A stretch of 64,000 nt of DNA, taken from Stutzerimonas decontaminans. GTDB taxonomy: Bacteria > Pseudomonadota > Gammaproteobacteria > Pseudomonadales > Pseudomonadaceae. Below are positions 32,948 to 46,576 of this stretch, piece by piece; position 1 is the first letter of the stretch; every line of letters starts with the position of its first letter. The stretch is taken from positions 558,001 through 622,000 of the forward strand of contig NZ_CP007509.1 of assembly GCF_000661915.1 (NCBI RefSeq). The letters run 5' to 3'. The notes under the pieces are model-generated. The model had not been told where the DNA came from, searched no databases, and saw only the letters and a list, made by a program, of their open reading frames with translations. The translations under genes and the position numbers were made by a program.

Positions 32948-33661
32948 TTAAAGCAGCGGATCACTTATAGGCGCAATGAGCCGAGCCCCCTCATTGCGCA
33001 CGTTTCCGATTTCTCGTCCTACCGCATACCACTCAAACCCATCGACTCCCTCCCCATGTTCAAGCGCAAGCTCTTCAGCCTCGCCAGGCGCCAGTTCGGG
33101 GTCCATCCAGTGAGCGGCACATTCTCCGGAGAAAACCAGTGGCCTGCGGTCATGGATGTCGAGCATGCCGTCATCGCTGGAAGAGGTGATGATCACGAAA
33201 CCATCGCCGTCTCGCGGTTCCAGCATACCGCCCCGTTGAAACTGGCCTATCGCCGCGAAGAACATCGGTTCACCACTACGCAGCGTTATGAAATAGGGCT
33301 GTTTGATCTTCGGGTTCCGCTCGTCCTTCTTCCATTCGAACCAACCGTCTGCCGGGACGATAGCGCGTCCTGTACCCCAGACATCACGAAAGAATTTTGA
33401 TGTCGCAGCGGTCTCTACTCTGGCATTGATCGCCGGCGGTCTCTTTCCGTGCGCCCACCAAGGCGCATACCCCCAAGGCACCGGATCCATTCGGAGACCG
33501 TCCGCGTCTTGATGTAGGAGCTGAACGTTTGATCGGGGCGGCACGTTGTACCGCCCGATAGGTTCAGGGCTTGCGCCTCCGAGTAACGGCAACGGCAGTT
33601 GCGCACCAATCTTGTCTAGATACTCGTAAGCAATTCGGTACTGGGCGAAACGTCCACACAT
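32948..33661 (-). CDS. SRAP/HMCES (YedK) family abasic-site processing protein
   Basis: A 237-residue SRAP-domain protein that, in characterised homologues, crosslinks to abasic sites in single-stranded DNA through Cys2. Start MCGRFAQY gives the required Cys2 after Met removal; a longer upstream reading would abolish it. Other active-site regions are intact: RYNVPPR (Asn), INARVET (Glu), and IHDRRPLVFSG (His). Transcription is away from umuD, from a shared region containing a LexA box, so SOS induction is likely. Confidence 0.93.
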   Translation of the reverse strand: MCGRFAQYRIAYEYLDKIGAQLPLPLLGGASPEPIGRYNVPPRSNVQLLHQDADGLRMDPVPWGYAPWWAHGKRPPAINARVETAATSKFFRDVWGTGRAIVPADGWFEWKKDERNPKIKQPYFITLRSGEPMFFAAIGQFQRGGMLEPRDGDGFVIITSSSDDGMLDIHDRRPLVFSGECAAHWMDPELAPGEAEELALEHGEGVDGFEWYAVGREIGNVRNEGARLIAPISDPLL

Positions 33662-33712
33662 GATGCCTCCGCACGTCTGCTTCGATTGACCGGCCGATCG
33701 CCTCCAAGAATA

Positions 33713-33728
33713 CTGTATATAAATACAG
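33713..33728. promoter_or_regulatory. LexA (SOS) box between SRAP gene and umuD
   Basis: CTGTATATAAATACAG is a perfect CTG-N10-CAG palindrome with an AT-rich centre, as in the gammaproteobacterial LexA consensus CTGT(AT)4ACAG, and has TA before CTG. It lies 52 bp from the SRAP ATG and 17 bp from the umuD ATG, so one site can repress both divergent transcripts. Confidence 0.88.
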
Positions 33729-33744
33729 CATCTTGGACTGCGCC

Positions 33745-34176
33745 ATGCCCGTTCATATCTTGGGACCCACGGCTCCCTCAACAATTGCCTTACCGTTCTT
33801 CAGCTTCTGCGTGCCGGCCGGCTTTCCAAGCCCGGCACAGGATCATCTGGAGGGCAGCATCTCGCTGGACGAGCTGATGAACATCCGGGCACCTCATACC
33901 TACCTGGCGCGCGCGAGTGGCGAGAGCATGATCCACGTCGGCATTTTCGACCGGGACATCCTGGTCGTTGAGCGAGGGCGCGATGCGGAGAAAGGCGAGG
34001 TGATCATTGCGGCGTTGAACAATGAGCCATTGGTGAAGATATTCGATCGCGACGGCAGCCAGGTCATCCTGCGCTCGGCCAACCCAAAATATCCGGCGCG
34101 CTATCTCCTCGAAAGCGAGGAGCTCTACGTCTGGGGCGTGGTGCCTTACAGCATCCGAATCCATGGCAAGTATTGA
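33745..34176 (+). CDS. umuD: Translesion polymerase V accessory protein UmuD
   Basis: A 143-residue LexA/UmuD-type S24 peptidase. The self-cleavage site appears as [12 protein letters not shown] (Ala-Gly), the catalytic Ser as [23 protein letters not shown] and the catalytic Lys as [14 protein letters not shown] region. Length matches UmuD. It overlaps the umuC start by 14 bp. RecA-promoted cleavage to UmuD' would activate Pol V, but its partner umuC is interrupted here. Confidence 0.93.
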
Positions 34177-34411
34177 GCGAGTGATCGCCCTCATCGATTG
34201 CAACTCATTCTATGCGAGCTGTGAGCGAGTTTTCCGCCCGGATCTGCGGCGCACCCCGATCGTAGTGCTCTCCAACAATGACGGCTGCGTGATAGCTCGC
34301 TCGGCCGAGGCCAAAGCACTCGGAATCAAGATGGGCGCGCCGTACTTTCAGATTCGCCGTGACCTGGAGCGCTGGGGCGTGGTGGTGTTTTCCAGCAACT
34401 ACGCACTGTAT
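34163..34411 (+). pseudogene. umuC: umuC, 5' fragment (interrupted)
   Basis: Encodes the first 83 residues of the Y-family polymerase V catalytic subunit: [28 protein letters not shown] with the catalytic Asp and the steric-gate Tyr region, then [26 protein letters not shown]. Homology ends at SSNYALY and a stop follows at once, at the junction with the inserted element. The rest of the gene resumes at 39255 with GDMSERVM, the exact continuation of UmuC. The protein made from this fragment cannot be a polymerase. Confidence 0.92.
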
Positions 34412-34469
34412 TAAGTTAGGTGGAATGCTTTTGAGCTAGGCTGAATCCGTTGACGCTCAGGGGGCGCCC

Positions 34470-35489
34470 ATGACCACCACCCCATTGCACAAGCAAGTGT
34501 TAAGTCGTTATTCCAGTGTACAAGCTTGGCTGGAGCTCTTGGGTAATCTGGGGCGTGCGCCGGCCACCCTTGACGCCTATGGCCGTGCCCTTGCGCATTA
34601 CTTATTGCATTGCGAAGGGAGTGGGCTGAAACCCGAATCCGCGACATTCGAACAAGTCACGCTCTACATCCGTGAGCTGCTACCTGGCGCAAAGAGCGCG
34701 GTGGCGAATTCAACCTTGCACCAGCGGCTTACTGCTATCCGGTTGTGGTACGACCACCTCGTTTTTCAGGGTCTTTGCGAGCACAACCCCGTGCCCCGCG
34801 GACAGCATGGTCGGCTGGCCCAAGTGCCTGGACATGGAGGGTTTGTCAGGGGCTTGCTCCCACGGCTGATTAAGTTGCCAGACATTCCCACCGATGAGCA
34901 GTGGCGACACTTTCTCAGTATTGCGGCCAGGTCGTCTATCCGTGATCGACTAATGCTGTCGTTGGCGTATTTCGGGGCTCTTCGCCGTGCCGAGTTGGTG
35001 GCCTTGCGTATTGAGGATTTAGACGTTGCACACCGACTGATCTCGGTGCGAGCGGAAACGACCAAAGGCAAACGCAGCCGCGTCGTGTGCTACAGCCCAG
35101 ACATTGCACCTGTCTTGATAGAGCATCTACATGCTCTTCGCGGCGCTGGCTGGATGCGAGGTTCGTTGTTTCGATCAGCATCAGATCGTAATCGAGGCTC
35201 GCCACTGTCCCGTTGGGCGTGGAGTAAAACGGTTGAAGGGTGGGCCAAGGAAGCGAAACTATCGCACCTGAGCACTCATACCTTTCGCCACCTTCGGCTT
35301 ACCCATCTGGCCCGTGCGGGCTGGAAGCTCCATGAACTGACCACGTATGCTGGACATCGAGACCCCAAAACCACTTTGATTTACCTGCACCTATCTGGCG
35401 CGGATTTAACCGCAAAGATGGCGCACTCCGTCGGCAGTCTCGATGCTCGGATGTTCTGTGAACTCTTTGGGTCTGAGGCATTGCTATGA
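34470..35489 (+). CDS. Tyrosine recombinase, TnpA-like (Tn554 family)
   Basis: A 339-residue phage-type integrase. N-terminal SAM-like domain (LGNLGRAPATLDAYGRALAHYLLHCE), then the catalytic domain: Arg in YFGALRRAELVALRIEDL, HTFRHLRLTHL (H-x-x-R), and GHRDPKTTLIYLHL (His and nucleophilic Tyr). The stop overlaps the start of the next recombinase gene by 4 bp (ATGA), the arrangement seen in Tn554-type elements where two recombinases act together. The first gene of the element. Confidence 0.9.
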   Translation: MTTTPLHKQVLSRYSSVQAWLELLGNLGRAPATLDAYGRALAHYLLHCEGSGLKPESATFEQVTLYIRELLPGAKSAVANSTLHQRLTAIRLWYDHLVFQGLCEHNPVPRGQHGRLAQVPGHGGFVRGLLPRLIKLPDIPTDEQWRHFLSIAARSSIRDRLMLSLAYFGALRRAELVALRIEDLDVAHRLISVRAETTKGKRSRVVCYSPDIAPVLIEHLHALRGAGWMRGSLFRSASDRNRGSPLSRWAWSKTVEGWAKEAKLSHLSTHTFRHLRLTHLARAGWKLHELTTYAGHRDPKTTLIYLHLSGADLTAKMAHSVGSLDARMFCELFGSEALL

Positions 35490-37651
35490 GCACCCCCTCA
35501 GTCACCCCTTATGTTCCGTTCGACGCGAGCAAGTACGTACGTCAGAGCGATCTATCGAAAATCGAGCTGAGCATACTTTCGAATCGCTCTCACCGTTCAG
35601 ACTGGGGCTACCTCCAATCAGAGATACCTGAGCTCATGAGGCCGCTAGCTGATATAGCGGCGCACAGCGGCGTTTCTCAGCGATTAGCCATTTCATCAGT
35701 GGCAGTCATTCTCTGGAATGTCAGCAAAACCGGTAAACCCTACTGGTGTTGGTCTGAGTCGCAGTGGTTGACCTTGCTCAGTAATCGAGCAGGATCACGA
35801 CCATATCTCGCTTCCGTTGCTTACCATCTCGGCGATTTTCGAACCCCGCAGCGTATCGCCAAATTCCGGCAGCCGGCGATATATGCTTCTTTTATCTTCG
35901 GCCATGCCGTGTTCAGACATGAGCACGTTCGCTTGAGCCAAGCGTTGAGATCGCTGGGCTACGCTGCTCGCCATCTTGAGCAGTTCCTTTCCAACGTGCT
36001 GGGTGCCTTGATGCTGGAAAACGGCGATCCGCGGTTGGAGACATTCACCGAGGAACTGCTACTGAAGGGCCAACAGCATCGAAGCGAAGGTGTCGCGAGA
36101 TCGGTCGGAAAGGTATCTCACGGCCTCGCTGCCATGGGGATTTTGGCGAAACCTTTACGCATGCGAGGCTATACCTGTTGGCGGGCGAAAAGCATCGAAG
36201 GCATCGATCCGACTTGGGCAATGTGGTGCCGTCGATGGCGAGACACTTCCACCTTGCGTCCACGCACACGTGAAAGCAATTACAGTTTTATCTTGAGGAC
36301 CGGTGTCTGGCTAGCGCGCGAGCAATCAGGAATGGCGGCGCCTACCGATTGGAGCATGTCCACTTGCGCTGCATTTATTGCTGCCGTCGACCGGATGACG
36401 GTCGGTGAGTGGGCTTTGGAGTCAGCGAAGGGAACACAGCTAAAGGGGCTTGGTCAGCCTATCGCTGCCAACTCGAAGCGCGGCTTTCTACATGCCTTGC
36501 GACGATTTTTTACAGACTTTGAACTCTGGGGATGGGGTCGTTTGAAGTTCAGCCCCCGGCATCACCTCGCCACCCCGCGATCCGTGACATTCAACTCGGG
36601 TATCAACCCGCGGGTAATTGATGACTCGACCTGGCTCAAGCTGATTTGGGCGAGTCTAAATCTTGAGCGTAGTGATCTGCTTTCGGAGATTCACTATCCG
36701 CTGTCGATGGTTCAAGCCATTGCTGTAGTGTGGACGCACGCTGGTTTGCGCAGCAATGAAATCATGCGCTTGGATAAAAGATGCGCGCATCCTCAGACCA
36801 ATGATGTGGTACACGAGGATGGGACCATCGTTCCAGCAAAAACTTTATGCTATCTCGATATTCCTGCCAGCAAGACGTTCAAAGCTTTCGTCAAACCTGT
36901 AGCGGTGGTCGTGAAGGAGCGCATTGACGCCTGGCTGGAGGACAGGCCTGCTAACCAGGCCGCTTTGCTGGATGAGCGAACCGGGGAAAAAGTTAGCTAC
37001 CTATTTCAGTTTCGAGGCAAGCGCATAGGCTCCAGTGTCATTAATGGCACCATCATTCCAATGCTATGCGCCAAGGCGGGTGTGCCACTGGAGGACAGTC
37101 GCGGGCGAATCACCAGCCACCGGGGACGTGCCTCCGCAGTGACGGCGCTCGCCAGCGTCCCTCAGGGCATGTCGCTGATCGAGCTAATGCAGTGGTCGGG
37201 ACATAGCTCGCCGAATTCGACTTTGCATTACATTCGAATTCGGCCTACCAAGCTGGCAGCATCCTTCGTTAAAGCCGATCAAATGGCCCATATGGTCTCC
37301 GTTTTGATCGATCATGACGTAATTGTTCGCCATTCAGATGCCCCCTACACCTTCTATGACTTGGGCGACTCGTATTGTTCAAATCCCTTCTGGAGCAGCT
37401 GCCCACATCGCATGGCCTGTGCGGGGTGTGACTTCAACTTGCCGAAAGCCAGCGCAAGGGCCCAAGCATTGGAAAGCAAATCGTCTATCGGACGGTACTT
37501 GGAGGCCGTGCCTTTAACTCCCGACGAGCGAGCCATTGCCGAGGGCGACTTGGAAAAGCTGGAGAGCCTCATTCGAAAGCTGGACAATGTGCCGGCTCTA
37601 GACGGCAGGATGCCGAGGAGATCGATGAGAGAAAGAGGAGGCTATAAGTAG
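35486..37651 (+). CDS. Tyrosine recombinase, TnpB-like (Tn554 family)
   Basis: A 721-residue large tyrosine recombinase. Catalytic residues in the C-terminal third: Arg in WTHAGLRSNEIMRLD, TSHRGRASAVTAL (H-x-x-R), and QWSGHSSPNSTLHYIRIR (His and Tyr). A Cys-rich tail (YCSNPFWSSCPHRMACAGCDF, about residues 630-655) is characteristic of Tn554 TnpB proteins and may bind zinc. Codon use is more AT-rich than the surrounding chromosome, indicating transfer. Confidence 0.88.
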   Translation: MSTPSVTPYVPFDASKYVRQSDLSKIELSILSNRSHRSDWGYLQSEIPELMRPLADIAAHSGVSQRLAISSVAVILWNVSKTGKPYWCWSESQWLTLLSNRAGSRPYLASVAYHLGDFRTPQRIAKFRQPAIYASFIFGHAVFRHEHVRLSQALRSLGYAARHLEQFLSNVLGALMLENGDPRLETFTEELLLKGQQHRSEGVARSVGKVSHGLAAMGILAKPLRMRGYTCWRAKSIEGIDPTWAMWCRRWRDTSTLRPRTRESNYSFILRTGVWLAREQSGMAAPTDWSMSTCAAFIAAVDRMTVGEWALESAKGTQLKGLGQPIAANSKRGFLHALRRFFTDFELWGWGRLKFSPRHHLATPRSVTFNSGINPRVIDDSTWLKLIWASLNLERSDLLSEIHYPLSMVQAIAVVWTHAGLRSNEIMRLDKRCAHPQTNDVVHEDGTIVPAKTLCYLDIPASKTFKAFVKPVAVVVKERIDAWLEDRPANQAALLDERTGEKVSYLFQFRGKRIGSSVINGTIIPMLCAKAGVPLEDSRGRITSHRGRASAVTALASVPQGMSLIELMQWSGHSSPNSTLHYIRIRPTKLAASFVKADQMAHMVSVLIDHDVIVRHSDAPYTFYDLGDSYCSNPFWSSCPHRMACAGCDFNLPKASARAQALESKSSIGRYLEAVPLTPDERAIAEGDLEKLESLIRKLDNVPALDGRMPRRSMRERGGYK

Positions 37652-37795
37652 AAAAGTTCTTAAGCGACTAGTGGCTCGCTAGACATACCTGTCGCGTTAC
37701 TCCTAAGTTATGCGACACACTAGATTTTTCGGGGTTTTGCTGGGCTGCGGGTGTCGCAGGAGTGTGCCGCACGTAGATCGAAGTTAAACCTGATG

Positions 37796-38359
37796 CTAGG
37801 CCGGCTCATGCACTAGCCGGATGTCGATTTCTCTGTCGACATACTGCCACTCCACCGAGGCTCGGAGTTCGGCCAGAAGCCTGTTAAAGGCCGTCTCATC
37901 AGACGGGGAATATTCGAACCAAGTCAAGAAGTCGAAGGGTTCGTTCTCGCCCAGGTCCCGACAATGGTGGAGGCGGCGGGCCACAGCAGGGAGATATTGG
38001 AGCCCGATGTGAATGTGACGGGACTGTTCCTCAAAAATCTTCCGGCGTTCGTCTTGAGACAGTCCCCACCATGAGGGGTTTTTCCGGATAGGGATCAGGG
38101 CGGCGCAGGTAGCCTCTGCTCGACCCAAGCTTGGCTGCTTCGCCACGAGACGATCCTTCTCTTCACGCACGACATAGCGCTCGTTACTCGTTATCCCGCG
38201 AAGGAGCCATTTGGTGCCCGGAGGCTGCGGCGAAACAGAGCCAGCGGCTACGTTGAGCCGTGGGATTCCAGGGAGAGGGGCTCCTGCCACGGCATTCATC
38301 GCAACAACGCGCCAAACCCCCGTTTCTCCACCAGCGAACGTAAATACTCGTGTATTCAT
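37796..38359 (-). CDS. cld: Chlorite dismutase, short (lineage II) type
   Basis: A 187-residue haem protein predicted to convert chlorite to chloride and O2. From residue 82 on it follows the small dimeric enzyme of Nitrobacter (ATCAALIPIRKNPSWW; DERRKIFEEQSRHI; LQYLPAVARRLHHCRDLG; PFDFLTWFEY; VEWQYVDREIDIRL). The proximal His (H115) and distal Arg (R128) are 13 residues apart, as H114/R127 in that enzyme. The Arg is what separates active chlorite dismutases from other haem members. GAGGA precedes the ATG. Second gene of a cupin-cld pair inside the mobile element. The resemblance is from memory, not alignment. Confidence 0.85.
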   Translation of the reverse strand: MNTRVFTFAGGETGVWRVVAMNAVAGAPLPGIPRLNVAAGSVSPQPPGTKWLLRGITSNERYVVREEKDRLVAKQPSLGRAEATCAALIPIRKNPSWWGLSQDERRKIFEEQSRHIHIGLQYLPAVARRLHHCRDLGENEPFDFLTWFEYSPSDETAFNRLLAELRASVEWQYVDREIDIRLVHEPA

Positions 38360-38382
38360 CAGGTTCCTCTCAGGCCTTTCGC

Positions 38383-38745
38383 CTATTTCTCAGATAACGC
38401 AAAACCTGCACTGCCCGGCGCAACCACGGAGACAAATATGAAAGGTCCTGGACCAGAGTTCACGGCACCATGTACTTGCCCAGGTTTTGCAATGGCAATA
38501 TCTCCAGCTTTAAGATGAATTTCTACGCCGTTGCCTTGATAATACTTGGCCTCACCTGAGATAACCGTCCAAGTATCTTGGCCGTGAGGATGGACATGGG
38601 CAGCTATTTCCTGCCTAGGGTAGGCGTGCCAAACTACAACGACAGAATCGTTGGTCTCCAGAACAACTGAACGGATCGGTTCGCCGTTAGACGGACGGAC
38701 ATATTCGTCCACCGAAAAAATCCGCGATTCCGTTTCTGCTTTCAT
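38383..38745 (-). CDS. Single-domain cupin
   Basis: A 120-residue small cupin. Metal-binding motif 1 reads AAHVHPHGQDTWTVISGE (HxHx..E-like) and motif 2 reads AIAKPGQVHGAVNSGPGPF (G..H). GGAG seven bases before the ATG; the open frame extends upstream but without a ribosome-binding site or family resemblance. It ends 23 bp before the chlorite dismutase start and is surely cotranscribed. Cupins accompany cld genes in some mobile clusters; the role (for instance scavenging reactive chlorine species) is a hypothesis. Confidence 0.85.
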   Translation of the reverse strand: MKAETESRIFSVDEYVRPSNGEPIRSVVLETNDSVVVVWHAYPRQEIAAHVHPHGQDTWTVISGEAKYYQGNGVEIHLKAGDIAIAKPGQVHGAVNSGPGPFIFVSVVAPGSAGFALSEK

Positions 38746-39254
38746 GTTCACACTCCATTCCTGCACCGCAAGGTGACGTGCATCTGGCACTAACACCAAG
38801 ACGAAGCCTTGATCTTGATGGGGGCGGAGAAGCTCGACACGCCGAACGGCATCATGAAGAGCACTTTCATGCGGCACCAACCATTTCTTTTAACGACACG
38901 AGGCTCGTATGCACATGACGATATGTACTTGAGCGCCTTTCGGAAAAGCTATGTTATAGGACGGAGACCGTCAATACTCCGTCGTGGGTAGGCATGACAG
39001 AACGGTAGGATAACGGCGACGTTTTGGTCATATGTACATGGGAGGGCGGTTCACCGCTCGGCAGGGGTGTTGTCGATGGACAGGTGTCCGCCTTCGATGT
39101 AACAGATCAGCTTTGACCGGTTACTAACAGGATGACCGGATGATCCGGTGAGCGACGGCGATCTCCTCAGAAGCTACAGCCATACCGGTTGGGTATGAGA
39201 AGCTCCAAGGGCGAGCATGGCCCGGTTCTTATTGACTTTCTATTACACATAAAC
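38746..39254. other. Right-end segment of the Tn554-type element without a recognisable gene
   Basis: About 510 bp upstream of the cupin. It must contain the cupin-cld promoter. Inverted segments occur near 39112-39160 (GACCGGTTACTAACAGGATGACCGGATGATCCGGTGAG) and might be recombinase or regulator sites. The frame upstream of the cupin is open for 45 codons but shows no known domain. No terminator or RNA was recognised. Confidence 0.5.
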
Positions 39255-40286
39255 GGTGACATGAGCGAACGAGTGATGACAGTCATCGAGGGGCTTGTCC
39301 CTGCCGTCGAGGTGTACTCGATCGATGAATCTTTCGCTGATCTGACTGGAGTACCGGACGTTGAAGCTCTCGGCAGGCGGATTCGCACGCAAGTCTTGGC
39401 GAGTACTGGTATTCCCGTCGGGGTAGGTATCGCAGGCACAAAGACTCTGGCGAAGCTGGCCAACCATTCGGCGAAGCGCTGGCAAAAGCAAACCGGCGGC
39501 GTTGTAGACCTGCTCGATCCGGTTCGGCGTGACAAGGTGCTGCGCGTGACTGACGTGAGTGACGTTTGGGGGATAGGCCGCCGAATGACCGAGCATCTGA
39601 ACAGCATGGGTGTCCGCACCGCCTGGGATTTGGCATGCGCGGACGCCTGGACGTTGCGCAAGCAGTTCAGCGTGGTGGTAGAGAAAACGGCCCGTGAGCT
39701 ACGCGGTACGCCGTGCCTAGATCTAGAGGAAGCGGCGCCGCCCAAGCAAGAGATTTGCTGTTCAAGGATGTTCGGCAAGCGCCTCCTGGAGTTGGGGCCG
39801 ATCCGGGAGGCTGTGGCAACGTATGCCGCCCGCGCTGCTGAGAAGCTACGGGCGCAGCAGTCCATGTGCAAACGAGTGCGAGTGAGCATCCGCACCGGCA
39901 TGTTCAACCCAGACGAGCCAAAGTTTGCCAAAGGGGTGGTAGTTGAGCTGCCTTATCCAACGGACGACACCAGATACATCACCCGCGCGGCTATCGCTGG
40001 CCTGGAGCATGTCTATCGAGAGGGCTTTTCATTCAGCAAGGCCGAGGTGCTGCTGATGGATCTCAGACAGCGCGGCGAGTACACCGACGATCTCTTTACC
40101 GAAATCCAGCCCGCCGCCTCAGCGCGGGTGATGGGTGTGCTGGATGCGATTAACGCCAAGTGGGGGCGCAACACCCTTAGGCCAGGGCGTGTACCCACAG
40201 CGCCCGACTGGGGCATGCGGCGGGACATGATGAGTCAGAGCTTTACTACGCGAATCGATCAGCTTTGGCTGGTGCGGTGCGAGTAA
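39255..40286 (+). pseudogene. umuC: umuC, 3' fragment (interrupted)
   Basis: Encodes the remaining about 343 residues of UmuC: GDMSERVMTVIEGLVPAVEVYSIDESFADLTG (catalytic acidic residues SIDES), then the helix-hairpin-helix thumb (VWGIGRRMTEHLNSMG) and little-finger domain to the normal C-terminus (WGMRRDMMSQSFTTRIDQLWLVRCE). The frame is intact, so the gene was probably functional until the insertion, and precise excision would restore it. An internal start could give a protein but without the N-terminal catalytic Asp. Confidence 0.92.
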
Positions 40287-40303
40287 GGTAAGCGTTGGAT
40301 TGC

Positions 40304-40329
40304 AAAAAGCCCCGATCCGTTCGGGGCTT
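40304..40329. terminator. Terminator between umuC and the zinc-ribbon gene
   Basis: Stem AAGCCCCGA / TCGGGGCTT with loop TCCGT (40307-40329), preceded by AAAAA on the plus strand, which is a T-tract on the minus strand. It therefore best terminates the minus-strand gene ending at 40336, and is a hairpin stop for umuC too. Confidence 0.8.
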
Positions 40330-40335
40330 CTCATT

Positions 40336-40998
40336 CTAGCCTCTACCGAAACAGGCGAAGCAGACGCCCCCTTGTACATGGTTGAAATGTGGGATGTATC
40401 CAGTTCCGCCGCAACGGGTGCAATAGCCTCTTGGCCCGCGGCCCGTGCTAGGGAAGGAAGGGCCAAACTCGTCCAACTTGTTAAGCCTCTCCAGCGCCTC
40501 GGCAACAGGGGACGGAGCCGAGCTAGTCACCTGTCGGCGTTCGATTGGATACGTGGTGTCAGACAGCATGTAAGGGAAATCAAGATTGGCCTCCCGGATG
40601 CCCTCCTTAAGCCAACCTTGGTATGCCTGATAATGCTGGGCGTTTAGGCGGGAAGTAGCCATTACCTCTGCTGAAAAACCGTGCAAGTCGATGTAGTCCG
40701 ACAAGGTTATTCGCACTACATCCGAAGTACTGGGTATCCAAAGATAGATGAATCGGTCATGGGATTGATAGCGAGGGTCATAGATGCATTGGCCTTCCAG
40801 CCAGGGCAACGACAAAACGGCGGAATTCGGCCGTCCCTTAGCGGGCGAGTCGAGCCGTTCGGGCAAGGCAGCAGAAGATAAGGGAATCCGTGTCAGATTT
40901 ACGGGTTTTTCAGGCCTCCGTGTCGCTCCCAGCGAAGCAGCACGGTCGAGTAGCCATAAAACGACAAGGGCCACTATAACAATCGCGCCCACTTCCAT
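40336..40998 (-). CDS. Membrane-anchored protein with C-terminal zinc ribbon, unknown
   Basis: A 220-residue protein with an N-terminal transmembrane helix (MEVGAIVIVALVVLWLLDRAA) and a cytoplasmic hydrophilic body. The C-terminus has two CxxC-type knuckles with Gly (YCTRCGGTGYIPHF...GGVCFACFGRG), like half of a DnaJ zinc domain. GGGAG eight bases upstream of the ATG supports the start. I do not recognise the family. It stands alone between umuC and the restriction enzyme, convergent with umuC. Confidence 0.7.
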   Translation of the reverse strand: MEVGAIVIVALVVLWLLDRAASLGATRRPEKPVNLTRIPLSSAALPERLDSPAKGRPNSAVLSLPWLEGQCIYDPRYQSHDRFIYLWIPSTSDVVRITLSDYIDLHGFSAEVMATSRLNAQHYQAYQGWLKEGIREANLDFPYMLSDTTYPIERRQVTSSAPSPVAEALERLNKLDEFGPSFPSTGRGPRGYCTRCGGTGYIPHFNHVQGGVCFACFGRG

Positions 40999-41689: not shown

Positions 41690-44600
41690 ATGTCTGCCTT
41701 GTCCGCTCTGCTCGACGCCTACCGCTCTGCCGCACTTACCGAACGCGAAAAAGGTACCTACTTTGAGGAGCTGATCTGCGCATACCTGCGCAACGAAGCC
41801 ACCTACCGCGATCTGTACGACAAGGTTTGGACATACGCTGACTGGGCCAAAGAGCAAGGGCTCGACGGCCGCGACACTGGTATCGACCTGGTGGCGCGTA
41901 CACAGGGCACCGGCGAGCACCACGCGATCCAGTGCAAGCTGTACGCAGAGAATTACCGCGTCCAGAAGAAGGACATCGACAGTTTCTTCACTGCCTCGGG
42001 CAAGGCGCCGTTCTCGCACCGCGTCATTGTTACTACCACCAATAACTGGAGCGAGCACGCCGAGGATGCCTTGCAGGGCCAGCAGCCCCCGGTCAGTAAG
42101 ATCGACCTGCAAGCCCTCGAAGACAGCCAGATCGACTGGGCGAAGTACCAGCCCAACCAGGCTGTTGCGCTCAAGGCCAAGAAACAACTGCGTGAGCACC
42201 AGCAGACCGCGCTGAACGCTGTAGCGGCCGGTCTAAAAGACGCGGAACGCGGCAAGCTGATCATGGCCTGCGGCACCGGCAAGACGTTCACCAGCCTAAA
42301 GATTGCCGAGCGCCTCGCCGGTAAGGGTAAGCGCGTACTGTTCCTGGTACCCAGCCTGTCGTTGCTGTCGCAGACCCTCACCGAATGGACGCAGGAAAGC
42401 GAAACCCCGCTCCACAGCTTCGCCGTGTGCTCCGACAGCGACGTGGGCAAGAAGCGCAAGGTGGAGGATGATGCCGTACAGGTGTTCACTCACGAGCTGC
42501 GCTACCCGGCCACCACCAAGGCTGATCGGCTCGCAGCGGAGATGCCCAAGCGCCACGACGCCGAGCACATGAGTGTGGTGTTCTCCACCTACCACTCCAT
42601 CGACGTGATCAGCCGCGCCCAACATGATCACGGCCTGGAAGCCTTCGACCTGGTGATCTGCGACGAAGCACACCGCACCACGGGTGCCACCTTTGGCGAA
42701 GATGACGAAAGCAAGTTCGTGCGCATCCACGACGCCGACTACATCCGTGCCGCCAAGCGCCTGTACATGACCGCCACGCCGCGCATCTACGGCGACAACG
42801 CGAAGATCAAGGCAGAGAGCGGCGAAGTCACCCTCTGCTCAATGGATGACGAAGCGCTGTATGGCAAAGAGCTGTTCGTCATCAACTTCTCCGAGGCCGT
42901 TCAGCGTGGCCTGCTCACCGATTACAAGGTGCTGGTGCTCACGGTTGAAGAGAGCGTCATTAACCGCCGCCTTCAGGACCTGCTCAAGGACGAAGACAAC
43001 CAGCTCAAGGTGGACGATGCCGCCAAGATCGTCGGCTGCTGGAAGGCGCTGGCCAAGCAGGGCCTCGCCGAAAACTTGGTGGGTGATGATCAGCCCATGA
43101 AGCGCGCTGTCGCCTTCTGTCAGGTGATCTCGCCCAACTACAAGGGCACCAAGCACAAGGTCAGCTCGATCAACATCGCCAGCATGTTCCAGTCGGTGGT
43201 GGAGGCTTACCAGGAGTCCGAAAACATCGACGAAGTCTCGCGCATCACCTGCCAAGCCGAGCACGTCGATGGCGGCATGAATGCCAGCCAGAAAGAAGCC
43301 AAGCTCAGTTGGCTGAAGGAAGAACCACCAGCCAACACCTGCCGCATCCTCAGCAACGTGCGCTGTCTCTCCGAGGGCGTGGACGTGCCGGCGCTAGATG
43401 CCGTGCTCTTCCTCACCCCGCGCAACTCCCAGGTGGACGTAGTGCAATCGGTTGGCCGGGTGATGCGCAACGCACCGGGCAAGAAGCGCGGCTATGTCGT
43501 GCTGCCCGTGGTTATTCCAGCTGGCATGGAGCCTCACGAAGCGCTCAACGACAACCAGACCTACAAGGTGGTCTGGCAGGTACTCCAGGCGCTGCGCTCG
43601 CACGACGACAGCTTCGACGCCATGGTCAACAAGCTCGATCTGATCGGCTCCGACCCACGCAAGATGGAAGTCATCGCCATCACCGATAAGGTGGACAAAA
43701 AGGCCAAGAAATCCAGCGGCACCAGCAACGGTAAGGCCGGCAAAGGTCAGTACGGCATTGGCGAAAAACGCAGCAAATACGAAGACGAAGGCCAGCTGAC
43801 TCAGCAGGCCGAACTGACTTACGAAGTGGGTGAAATCGAAAAGGCGATTTACGCCAAGATCGTTGAGAAGTGCGGTAACCGCCACCACTGGGAAGACTGG
43901 GCCAACGACATTGCCAAGATCGCCCGCACCCACATCGACCGCATCCAGGGCATTCTGGAGAACCCCGCCAACACCCAGGAAAAGGCTGCCTTCAACGCCT
44001 TCGCGGCCGAACTACGCGACGACCTCAACGACAGCATCAGCGATGGCGAGATCGTCGAAATGCTCGCCCAGCATCTGGTAACCAAACCGGTGTTCGATGC
44101 CCTGTTCGATGAGTACAGCTTTGCCAGCCACAACCCCATGTCCAAGGCCATGCAAGGCGTGCTGGACGCTCTTAATGAGCATCAATTGGCCAAAGAAGCG
44201 GACACTCTGGAGAAGTTCTACGCCAGCGTGCGGCAACGCGCTGCCGGCATCAACAATGCCCAGGGCAAGCAGAAGATCATCGTCGAACTGTACGACAAGT
44301 TTTTCCGCAACGCCTTCCCCAAGATGACCGCGCGGCTGGGTATCGTCTACACCCCGGTCGAAGTGGTCGATTTCATCCTTCACAGCGTCAACCTCCTGCT
44401 GCAACAGGAGTTTGGCCAGACCTTGGGCAGCAAGGGCGTCCACATCATCGACCCGTTCACCGGCACCGGCACCTTTATCACTCGCCTGATCCAGTCGGGC
44501 CTGATCAAGCCGGACGAACTGCCGCACAAATACAAGCACGAGATCCACGCCAACGAGCTGGTACTGCTCGCCTACTACATAGCAGCCATCAATATCGAAG

Positions 44601-46576
44601 CGGCTTACCACGGCGAAGTGATCGACGAGTACACCCCGTTTGAGGGCATCTGCCTGACCGATACCTTCCAGATGTATGAGAAGGACGATCTGGTGGACGC
44701 GCTACTAGAGGACAATAGTGCTCGGCGCAAGCGGCAGAAGGCGCTGGATATTCGGGTGATCGTGGGCAATCCGCCGTATTCGGTCGGACAAAAAAGCGAG
44801 AACGACAACAACGATAATGTTGAGTATCCAACTCTAGATGCCCGCATTCGTTCCACCTATGCCGAACACTCTACCGCCACTCTCACTAAAGGGCTGTATG
44901 ACAGTTATATCCGCGCCATTCGCTGGGCCAGTGATCGTATTGGTAATGCAGGCGTGATTGGCTTTGTCACGAATGGTGGCTTCCTAGAAAAGTCTGCTAT
45001 GGATGGTGTTCGCAAGTGTCTTGCTGAGGAATTCTCTTGCATTCATGTGTTTAATTTGCGCGGAGATATACGCAAAAACATGCTGAGTAAAGGTAGAGCC
45101 AAAGAAGGCGGAAATATCTTTGGTAGCGGCAGCATGGCGGGCATTGCCATTTCTGTTTTGGTTAAGAACCCAGATACCGCTGCCCATGGTCAAATTTATT
45201 ATCACGACGTAGGTGACGACCTCAGCAAAGAAGACAAGCTGGAAAAGATCGCCAGCTGCGTCAGCGTGGCAGGAATAGTCGATTGGCAGGTCATCACTCC
45301 CGATGAGCATGGCGACTGGCTTAAACAACGTGATAACAGCTTTAACCAGTTCATTGTCTTGGGTGACAAGAGAGGTGATGCGCCCAAACTGTTCGATAAC
45401 TTCTCGCAAGGCATCCTGACCGCTCGCGATGCTTGGGCTTATAACGCCAGCTTTGCCAAGCTGGAAGCCAACATCAGCCGCATGATCGGCTTCTACAATT
45501 CTGAGCTGACGCGCTTCAATGCGGCACATCCTAGACTGGACAAAAAGGGGCGTGAGGCTGTTCTGGATGGATTTATCGATACCAACCCGCAGCGCATTAG
45601 TTGGACGCACAATGTCAAACAAGAACTGGCCAAGGATCGCGCTTTTGAGTGCGAGGTGACATCCCTGACACCATCCCTCTACCGCCCCTTTACCAAACAA
45701 TGGATTTATTACAACCGAACCCTCAATGAGCGCGTGTACCAAATGCCACGTATCTTCCCTCGGGCAGGGGTGGAGAATTTGGTGATTTGTGTGTCTGGGA
45801 TTGGAGCGCGCACGGGCTTCTCTGCATTTGCTACAAATTTACCCCCCAACTTTGACAATCTTGAGAAGGGCCAATGCTTCCCTCGCTACCTCTACGTCGA
45901 AGCAGCTCAAGCAGCCGATGACGACTTTTTTGCCGAGCCAATTGAAGGAGGCATGCGCCGCCGCGATGCCATCACCGACGCCGCCCTAACCCACTTCCAC
46001 GCGGCCTACCCCGGCGAGCAGATCAGCAAGGAAGACCTGTTCTACTACGTCTACGGCATCCTCCATTCGCCCGATTACCGCGAGCGCTACGCGGACAACC
46101 TAAGCAAAGAGCTACCGCGCATCCCGGCAGTGAAGAAAGCCGCCGCCTTCTGGGCTTTCAGCAAGGCTGGCCGCGCCCTGGCCGAGCTTCATCTGAATTA
46201 CGAAACCGTCGAGCCGTACCCGCTGACCATCGAGGCCAAGGGCACGCTCACCGACGCCGACTACCGCGTTGAGAAGATGAAGTTCGCCAAGAAGGGCGAC
46301 AAAACCACCGTCATCTACAACCACCGCATCACCCTCAAGGGCATACCCGAGGCGGCATGGGACTATGTGGTCAACGGCAAGGCCGCACTGGACTGGGTGA
46401 TGGAGCGACAAGCCGTACGCACCGACAAAGCCAGTGGCATCGTCAATGACGCCAACGACTGGGCCATCGAAACCATGGGCAATCCCAAGTACCCGCTTGA
46501 GTTGTTTCAGCGCGTGGTCACAGTAAGTTTGGAAACCCAAAAGATCGTGAATGCGCTGCCGCCGTTGGATATCTAG
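41690..46576 (+). CDS. Type ISP restriction-modification enzyme (nuclease-helicase-methyltransferase)
   Basis: A 1628-residue single-polypeptide restriction-modification enzyme of the LlaGI/LlaBIII kind. Domains in order: Mrr-like nuclease (GIDLVAR...AIQCKLY, D66 and Q81-x-K83); SF2 helicase (MACGTGKTF near 195, ICDEAHRTTG near 324, SVGRVMRNAPG near 590); a helical coupler; N6-adenine methyltransferase (TPVEVVDFIL, DPFTGTGTFITRL near 922, NPPYSVGQ near 1027); and a C-terminal target-recognition region. No separate methylase or specificity gene is needed. It should methylate one strand of an asymmetric site and cut by translocation collision; the site is unknown. Codon use dips in GC around 44.8-45.8 kb, a probably swapped recognition region. 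Confidence 0.93.
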   Translation: MSALSALLDAYRSAALTEREKGTYFEELICAYLRNEATYRDLYDKVWTYADWAKEQGLDGRDTGIDLVARTQGTGEHHAIQCKLYAENYRVQKKDIDSFFTASGKAPFSHRVIVTTTNNWSEHAEDALQGQQPPVSKIDLQALEDSQIDWAKYQPNQAVALKAKKQLREHQQTALNAVAAGLKDAERGKLIMACGTGKTFTSLKIAERLAGKGKRVLFLVPSLSLLSQTLTEWTQESETPLHSFAVCSDSDVGKKRKVEDDAVQVFTHELRYPATTKADRLAAEMPKRHDAEHMSVVFSTYHSIDVISRAQHDHGLEAFDLVICDEAHRTTGATFGEDDESKFVRIHDADYIRAAKRLYMTATPRIYGDNAKIKAESGEVTLCSMDDEALYGKELFVINFSEAVQRGLLTDYKVLVLTVEESVINRRLQDLLKDEDNQLKVDDAAKIVGCWKALAKQGLAENLVGDDQPMKRAVAFCQVISPNYKGTKHKVSSINIASMFQSVVEAYQESENIDEVSRITCQAEHVDGGMNASQKEAKLSWLKEEPPANTCRILSNVRCLSEGVDVPALDAVLFLTPRNSQVDVVQSVGRVMRNAPGKKRGYVVLPVVIPAGMEPHEALNDNQTYKVVWQVLQALRSHDDSFDAMVNKLDLIGSDPRKMEVIAITDKVDKKAKKSSGTSNGKAGKGQYGIGEKRSKYEDEGQLTQQAELTYEVGEIEKAIYAKIVEKCGNRHHWEDWANDIAKIARTHIDRIQGILENPANTQEKAAFNAFAAELRDDLNDSISDGEIVEMLAQHLVTKPVFDALFDEYSFASHNPMSKAMQGVLDALNEHQLAKEADTLEKFYASVRQRAAGINNAQGKQKIIVELYDKFFRNAFPKMTARLGIVYTPVEVVDFILHSVNLLLQQEFGQTLGSKGVHIIDPFTGTGTFITRLIQSGLIKPDELPHKYKHEIHANELVLLAYYIAAINIEAAYHGEVIDEYTPFEGICLTDTFQMYEKDDLVDALLEDNSARRKRQKALDIRVIVGNPPYSVGQKSENDNNDNVEYPTLDARIRSTYAEHSTATLTKGLYDSYIRAIRWASDRIGNAGVIGFVTNGGFLEKSAMDGVRKCLAEEFSCIHVFNLRGDIRKNMLSKGRAKEGGNIFGSGSMAGIAISVLVKNPDTAAHGQIYYHDVGDDLSKEDKLEKIASCVSVAGIVDWQVITPDEHGDWLKQRDNSFNQFIVLGDKRGDAPKLFDNFSQGILTARDAWAYNASFAKLEANISRMIGFYNSELTRFNAAHPRLDKKGREAVLDGFIDTNPQRISWTHNVKQELAKDRAFECEVTSLTPSLYRPFTKQWIYYNRTLNERVYQMPRIFPRAGVENLVICVSGIGARTGFSAFATNLPPNFDNLEKGQCFPRYLYVEAAQAADDDFFAEPIEGGMRRRDAITDAALTHFHAAYPGEQISKEDLFYYVYGILHSPDYRERYADNLSKELPRIPAVKKAAAFWAFSKAGRALAELHLNYETVEPYPLTIEAKGTLTDADYRVEKMKFAKKGDKTTVIYNHRITLKGIPEAAWDYVVNGKAALDWVMERQAVRTDKASGIVNDANDWAIETMGNPKYPLELFQRVVTVSLETQKIVNALPPLDI

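Follow-up and report, generated by a model that had tools for sequence, protein, structure and literature searches.

The locus analysed here lies in a 64-kb stretch of Stutzerimonas decontaminans DNA, referred to throughout as the window, and consists of a umuD gene followed by a umuC gene which is divided into two parts by a mobile element carrying two tyrosine recombinase genes, a cupin gene and a gene for a chlorite dismutase (Cld) (Table 1). The junctions were located by comparison with intact umuC alleles of the genus: the left one lies behind the first two bases, TA, of the codon for the second Tyr in SNYALY (SNYALY^GD), and the right one falls before the remainder of that codon and GD. 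The open reading frames of the element that were submitted to Pfam are the recombinases, the Cld and the cupin and nothing else; PADLOC gave no defence-system match for the cargo or the recombinases, and no Rfam match at gathering scores was obtained in 33500-40400. Just downstream of the split umuC, the window also contains a 1628-aa single-chain Type ISP restriction-modification enzyme (41690-46576).

Table 1. Features of the interrupted umuC locus, in window coordinates
Feature	Position	Strand	Basis
LexA/SOS-box-like palindrome CTGTATATAAATACAG, 16 bp before umuD ATG	33713..33728	+	exact match
umuD	33745..34176	+	Pfam Peptidase_S24, 92.9 bits; ATG read from sequence
umuC 5' part, cut after ...SNYALY (TA of Tyr codon)	34163..34410	+	PRK03609 UmuC profile 2-77
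Mobile element, 4,843 bp, ends TTAAGTTAGG...CACATAAA, 1-bp end ambiguity	34411..39253	+	13 further full-length copies
Tyrosine recombinase A, 339 aa, WP_011914410.1	34470..35489	+	Pfam Phage_integrase, 98.3 bits
Tyrosine recombinase B, 721 aa, WP_011914409.1	35486..37651	+	Pfam Phage_integrase, 27.3 bits (cut-off 27.1)
cld, predicted short lineage-2 chlorite dismutase, 187 aa, WP_026084028.1 = PDB 9gtj_A	37796..38359	-	Pfam, PDB match, alignment
Cupin, 120 aa, WP_071534424.1, upstream of cld, codirectional	38383..38745	-	Pfam Cupin_2
Stretch from upstream side of cupin-cld to right end of element	38746..39253	.	80-84% pieces elsewhere
umuC 3' part, GDMSERVM..., IMS_C + DUF4113	39254..40286	+	UmuC profile 77-421

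The element and its target in umuC

Fourteen full copies of the element were read, the one in the window included, and they are nearly identical: 11 are unchanged, L073 and L077 have one mismatch each, and L074 has a 20-bp insertion. The other copies come from three plasmid records (L003, L004 and L005, from the 11 records covering at least 80% of the query) and from ten loci (L070-L079) among the 80 named loci that were fetched, three of which appear under two numbers (L076 is L057, L072 is L058 and L071 is L060). Their hosts are Stutzerimonas, Pseudomonas (including P. aeruginosa PA7), Atopomonas, an unclassified Pseudomonadales metagenome assembly and plasmids, and the annotated copies carry the same recombinase and cupin accessions (WP_011914410.1, WP_011914409.1 and WP_071534424.1). 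When both flanks are read over at least 20 bp, at least 9 distinct umuC alleles prove to have been hit. Two insertions (L004 and L072) are in reverse orientation, both in a plasmid allele which also holds the forward insertions L003 and L076; the right flank of L057/L076 lacks a few target bases relative to L003, the allele being identical. Partial copies are present at L007, L061, L064 and L080.

Empty sites were found at 22 of 30 fetched loci (L028-L049), where umuD and the start of umuC pass uninterrupted into the rest of umuC, the second part being matched over just 74 bp in L045. A sequence-only reading of this DNA had described the cld gene as transposon cargo, and the bounded element with its empty sites in other genomes bears this out. 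Within the genus, 6 of 56 genomes hold a Cld (E 1e-10 or better). The whole element is absent from the 5,426 E. coli genomes searched, 68 of which have a partial match, those listed being of the Klebsiella type (see below). The two adjacent recombinases would insert the element at a conserved Tyr codon of umuC-family genes, directly behind its first two bases (TA), occasionally in reverse.

The same recombinases probably also excise the element, now and then leaving a short scar. In the genome to which the window belongs, another umuDC lies at C1:3.65 Mb, and its umuC (C1:3653121-3653143, L063) contains 2 extra A exactly at the insertion point of the element. None of 24 other sites from the fetched loci has an extra A, and among 398 Pseudomonadaceae genomes the extra-A form occurs in one, the window's own, while the uninterrupted form occurs in 143. 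Because the element terminates in AAA, an excision that left two element bases behind would be the simplest reading of this single case, which could also represent 2 bp inserted by chance or an error in the sequence.

The palindrome in front of umuD resembles the LexA/SOS-box consensus, and it is one of 2 exact matches to the box within the window. Matches with at most one mismatch number 15, against 19 expected, and are not above chance; because box matches are not in excess across the window, it is the position of this one match that argues for a candidate LexA site. Recombinase B overlaps A by 4 bp. Because the recombinase genes follow the cut umuC at a distance of about 60 bp and share its direction, their transcription probably starts at the LexA-controlled umuDC promoter, and DNA damage may drive the movement of the element.

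In these respects the element would be a small site-specific transposon, carrying cupin-cld, of a kind that resembles the integron-like elements (ILEs) of rulB/umuC (Rhodes et al. 2014, PMC4542609). The likeness consists in the insertion into a umuC-family gene and in the recombinases adjoining the truncated gene; two P. syringae ILEs have a 60-bp gap between rulB' and the integrase, like the approximately 60 bp of the window element, and in pUM505, which is named in the same paper, the recombinase genes are 87% identical at the DNA level and the junction is that of the window element. The ILEs FH1, FH4 and FH5 differ, however, in having three recombinases, tetR and a 3-bp direct repeat, GAT, which was mapped 118-119 nt upstream of where the integrase gene starts, whereas the window element has two recombinases, no tetR among its four main ORFs and an A repeat of at most 1 bp, with the junction at about 60 nt. 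GInts (PMC5385486) are likewise site-specific islands with a recombinase operon at one end and variable cargo, but they need four gin genes.

Relatives of recombinase B are found in 572 plasmid records, and the umuC-family target motif is present at 4 of the 7 recombinase-relative loci checked. Two recombinase pairs (L155:5040-8127 and L156:4983-8097) lie in mucB of IncN plasmids at SSNYTLY, though they are about 58% identical, and other genes stand behind them; the relatives at L008 and L009 lie at SSNYALY, and at L154, L157 and L158 the motif was not found upstream of the recombinases. The L008 recombinases are followed by a DUF5677 gene, the adjacent mercury genes being outside the element and not part of its cargo. 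In a Klebsiella variicola plasmid (L154:4970-12548), a related two-recombinase pair stands beside a CBASS-type cyclase, E1-E2, JAB and a SAVED effector.

The chlorite dismutase and the cupin

The cld product scores 32.1 bits for Pfam Chlor_dismutase (PF06778; cut-off 25) and has no NCBIfam match. In a search of PDB sequences it is the same as 9gtj_A ("Chlorite dismutase") over all 187 residues (E 3.6e-128), and the next nearest chains are the short, clade-2 Clds 5k8z (E 5.4e-59) and 3qpi (E 4.5e-57), the latter named simply 'Chlorite Dismutase' in the PDB table and taken by us to be the Nitrobacter Cld; long, clade-1 Clds are matched much more weakly (E 3.9e-10 or worse). The kinship to short Clds that had been read from the sequence is thereby upheld, and the length of the protein falls in the range of the short subunits (about 180-190 aa), the lineage-1 Cld of Stutzerimonas chloritidismutans AW-1 having 282 aa. 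The same reading had placed a His115/Arg128 pair in this 187-residue protein; the open reading frame lies where it was located, and the proximal His115 and distal Arg128 are kept in 64 of 64 aligned Clds, as are K93, W97, W98 and E170. A proximal His together with a catalytic distal Arg is the criterion for a functional Cld (PMC4973843).

In a tree of 63 lineage-2 rows and one lineage-1 row, with no HemQ row, the window protein groups with the Klebsiella type (support 100/99), a placement which is valid only within lineage 2; because the branch of the lineage-1 row is very long, the root carries no information. The tree took in 58 of the 80 named loci, and those left out were L122, L143 and L149, which contain stops, 18 duplicates and one sequence identical to that of the window. 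That the protein might instead be a HemQ/ChdC-like coproheme decarboxylase devoid of chlorite activity is suggested by the shared Pfam family PF06778 and by the low score. Arg128 is present, however, and putative Clds without the distal Arg are those which proved to be ChdCs (PMC7611857); moreover, the solved relatives down to E 10 are all named Cld apart from one chance match, with no decarboxylase or HemQ among them. The HemQ identity, which we regard as scarcely credible, was rejected on the active-site residues and the PDB matches. Because of its similarity to solved proteins and its distal Arg, the window protein is assigned, on the basis of its sequence, to the functional lineage-2 Clds and not to the coproheme decarboxylases. 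It is the single PF06778 protein of its genome. Of 398 Pseudomonadaceae genomes, only 10 have a Cld (E 1e-25 or better), so the benefit of Cld is not a general one.

The small cupin neighbouring cld is likewise found where the sequence-only reading had put it. It scores 50.1 bits for Pfam Cupin_2 (cut-off 27.2), it is close to PDB 3h8u (E 2.8e-70), and H50, H52 and H92, presumably the metal ligands, are kept in 4 of 4 aligned cupins, that of the window included. The 23 bp from the cupin stop to the cld start, a spacing that is identical in pKPN5, and the common direction of the genes suggest that the two would be cotranscribed; a scan of 37600-39300 for sigma-70-like promoters gave no sites (1.2 in shuffled sequence).

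This arrangement, the recurrence of a cupin at 23 of the 80 named Cld loci in variable gene order, and its occurrence, with the order swapped, next to a less closely related Cld of a Tn3-type element would all be expected of a cupin that is a functional partner of Cld. Against this, no similar cupin is present at the other 57 named loci (some of which are short contigs), and plasmid records with a relative of the cupin (2021) far outnumber those with a Cld (529), so that at least 1,492 cupin records are without Cld; in the two of these that were inspected, the cupin stands beside a nucleotidyltransferase/DUF86 pair. Among the 398 Pseudomonadaceae genomes, Cld is present in all 8 that have a 98-100% identical cupin and in 1 of the 8 that have a cupin at about 70%. 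A functional partnership is accordingly somewhat less probable, in our estimation, than its absence. The cupin is to be described as a frequent fellow traveller of Cld with a putative link to chlorite, and not as an obligate partner; the pairing of the two genes is real and mobile, as had been proposed, but it is not tight. The two inspected loci (L180:5314-6348 and L181:4162-5348) have a 70% identical cupin in Tn3-type surroundings, with no Cld in the stretch inspected.

The Klebsiella-type cld and its IS66-type vehicle

Most plasmid-borne relatives of the Cld, 445 of 529 records, are 90-95% identical to it. The Cld of Klebsiella pneumoniae MGH 78578 plasmid pKPN5 (KpCld, L006) is 95% identical and shares the cupin-cld order and the 23-bp gap, but its surroundings differ: the recombinases are gone except for about 30 codons of B, whereas the window element is whole, and cld lies in an IS66-type unit beside IS26. 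KpCld has reportedly been presented, by Celis and colleagues in 2015, as a chlorite antioxidant which releases O2 from chlorite. In pKPN5, about 1.2 kb at 92% identity to the element are followed by two pieces of its right end (80-84%) and then by umuC sequence (GDISRRVM...). The same block of right end and umuC is present in Marinobacter (L081), Alcanivorax (L082) and Halomonas (L083), so that it is the outer part of 38746..39253 which is kept in the Klebsiella-type loci, as the 80-84% pieces.

In Marinobacter and Alcanivorax the block lies within a unit of 4,525 bp. The two ends of this unit are inverted copies of each other, agreeing at 22 of 25 bp, and repeats of 8 bp stand on either side of it (GCCGATTA in Marinobacter, GCGAGATG in Alcanivorax). 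Target repeats of 8 bp are a hallmark of IS66, and the Halomonas copy has an annotated IS66 transposase; the inverted ends, the repeats and the transposase together are those of an IS66-type transposon, about 3.2 kb of which are retained in pKPN5. By these sequence features the Klebsiella-type cld is a decayed relative which an IS66-type transposon captured along with a fragment of umuC. A relative of the element is thus the source of the Klebsiella cld, with the transposon as its new vehicle. A further mobile lineage-2 Cld with a related cupin, WP_011514928.1 of the Tn3-type elements, differs in being 63-64% identical, in its place elsewhere in the Cld tree, in its reversed gene order and in its vehicle.

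Role of the cargo and relation to published work

As a member of lineage 2, the Cld is predicted to turn chlorite into chloride and O2, and the question is thus what it would do so for. Chlorate reductase is a member of the type II DMSO reductases (PMC6299022), and the window's genome has ten PF00384 places, which were read as nine molybdopterin-oxidoreductase frames. None of the nine passes the DMSO-reductase-II model TIGR03479; NarG and NapA score above their cut-offs, L019 is nearest to the formate dehydrogenase and Nas models but below every cut-off, and L021 matched no assigned type. The absence of chlorate or perchlorate reductase genes, which the sequence-only reading had noted nearby, therefore extends genome-wide as far as TIGR03479 is concerned, and the gene content supports its view that the Cld does not serve respiration. 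A part in chlorate or perchlorate respiration might be suspected from the chlorate reducer AW-1 (PMC6299022), which has at least two copies of cld, one of them in a whole element; that strain, however, has its separate long Cld (L150), with a signal sequence as judged by eye. A respiratory role, which we consider very improbable, was rejected on gene content, there being no DMSO-reductase-II-type enzyme that passes TIGR03479.

Because Nar and Nap are present and a chlorate-reductase-type enzyme passing the model is absent, detoxification of chlorite, not respiration, fits best for the mobile Cld. According to a review (PMC6299022, citing Celis et al. 2015), such Clds may remove chlorite that the cell's own nitrate-reducing pathways make from chlorate, and in this nitrate-respiring host the chlorite would most likely arise from chlorate through NarG, Nar-type enzymes being able to reduce chlorate (PMC6299022). 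The main task of the enzyme might instead be defence against hypochlorite or against host or disinfectant oxidants: Cld neighbourhoods hold reactive-chlorine response genes, a role for the cupin has been suggested in that connection (Barnum & Coates, PMC9751292), and the Klebsiella-type cld is carried by many clinical plasmids. Cld is, however, highly specific for chlorite (PMC9751292), and the Pfam-checked reading frames of the element other than Cld and cupin are recombinases, which, together with the NarG of the genome, makes this alternative improbable. The stress defence proposed from the sequence is thus sustained for chlorite, and chlorite made inside the cell from chlorate by nitrate reductase is a better-supported source (PMC6299022) than the hypochlorite-type stress that had also been named.

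The enzyme, its mobility and its link with the cupin have already been published (PMC9751292). Barnum & Coates 2022 found the cupin-Cld pair among transposases in the most recently transferred Clds, and Table 1 of that paper includes WP_011914410.1 and WP_011914409.1, together with a umuC subfamily whose members average 73 aa; the available portions show the Cld-cupin-XerD-integrase-umuDC neighbourhood and do not describe the ends of the element, the insertion in umuC or the connection with KpCld. In the portions of open-licence papers that were consulted, we found no account of the IS66 capture. The present analysis adds the exact ends of the element, the codon at which it inserts, how closely its copies agree, the scar and the capture by IS66 that leads to Klebsiella.

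The published recent spread of identical Clds can thereby be tied to one concrete vehicle, the ends and target of which are exactly defined; insertion at an exact spot in umuC helps to explain how cld has reached many bacteria, Klebsiella among them, and the origin of the well-studied Klebsiella Cld is accounted for. The reported association with the cupin may partly reflect shared mobile elements. Taken together, a umuC-specific transposon, a mobile cargo for chlorite detoxification and an IS66-type route to Klebsiella make up a combination which we hold to be very probably correct. A bolder form, in which the transposon is active and coupled to the SOS response, so that DNA-damaging oxidants induce the umuDC promoter and mobilise the cargo, and in which escape by IS66 spread a relative to the plasmids of Enterobacteriaceae, is a tentative and on balance unlikely extension; if it were true, the stress against which the cargo protects would also set the cargo moving. 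The element also makes it possible to test whether SOS induction and the movement of an oxychlorine-detoxification gene are linked.
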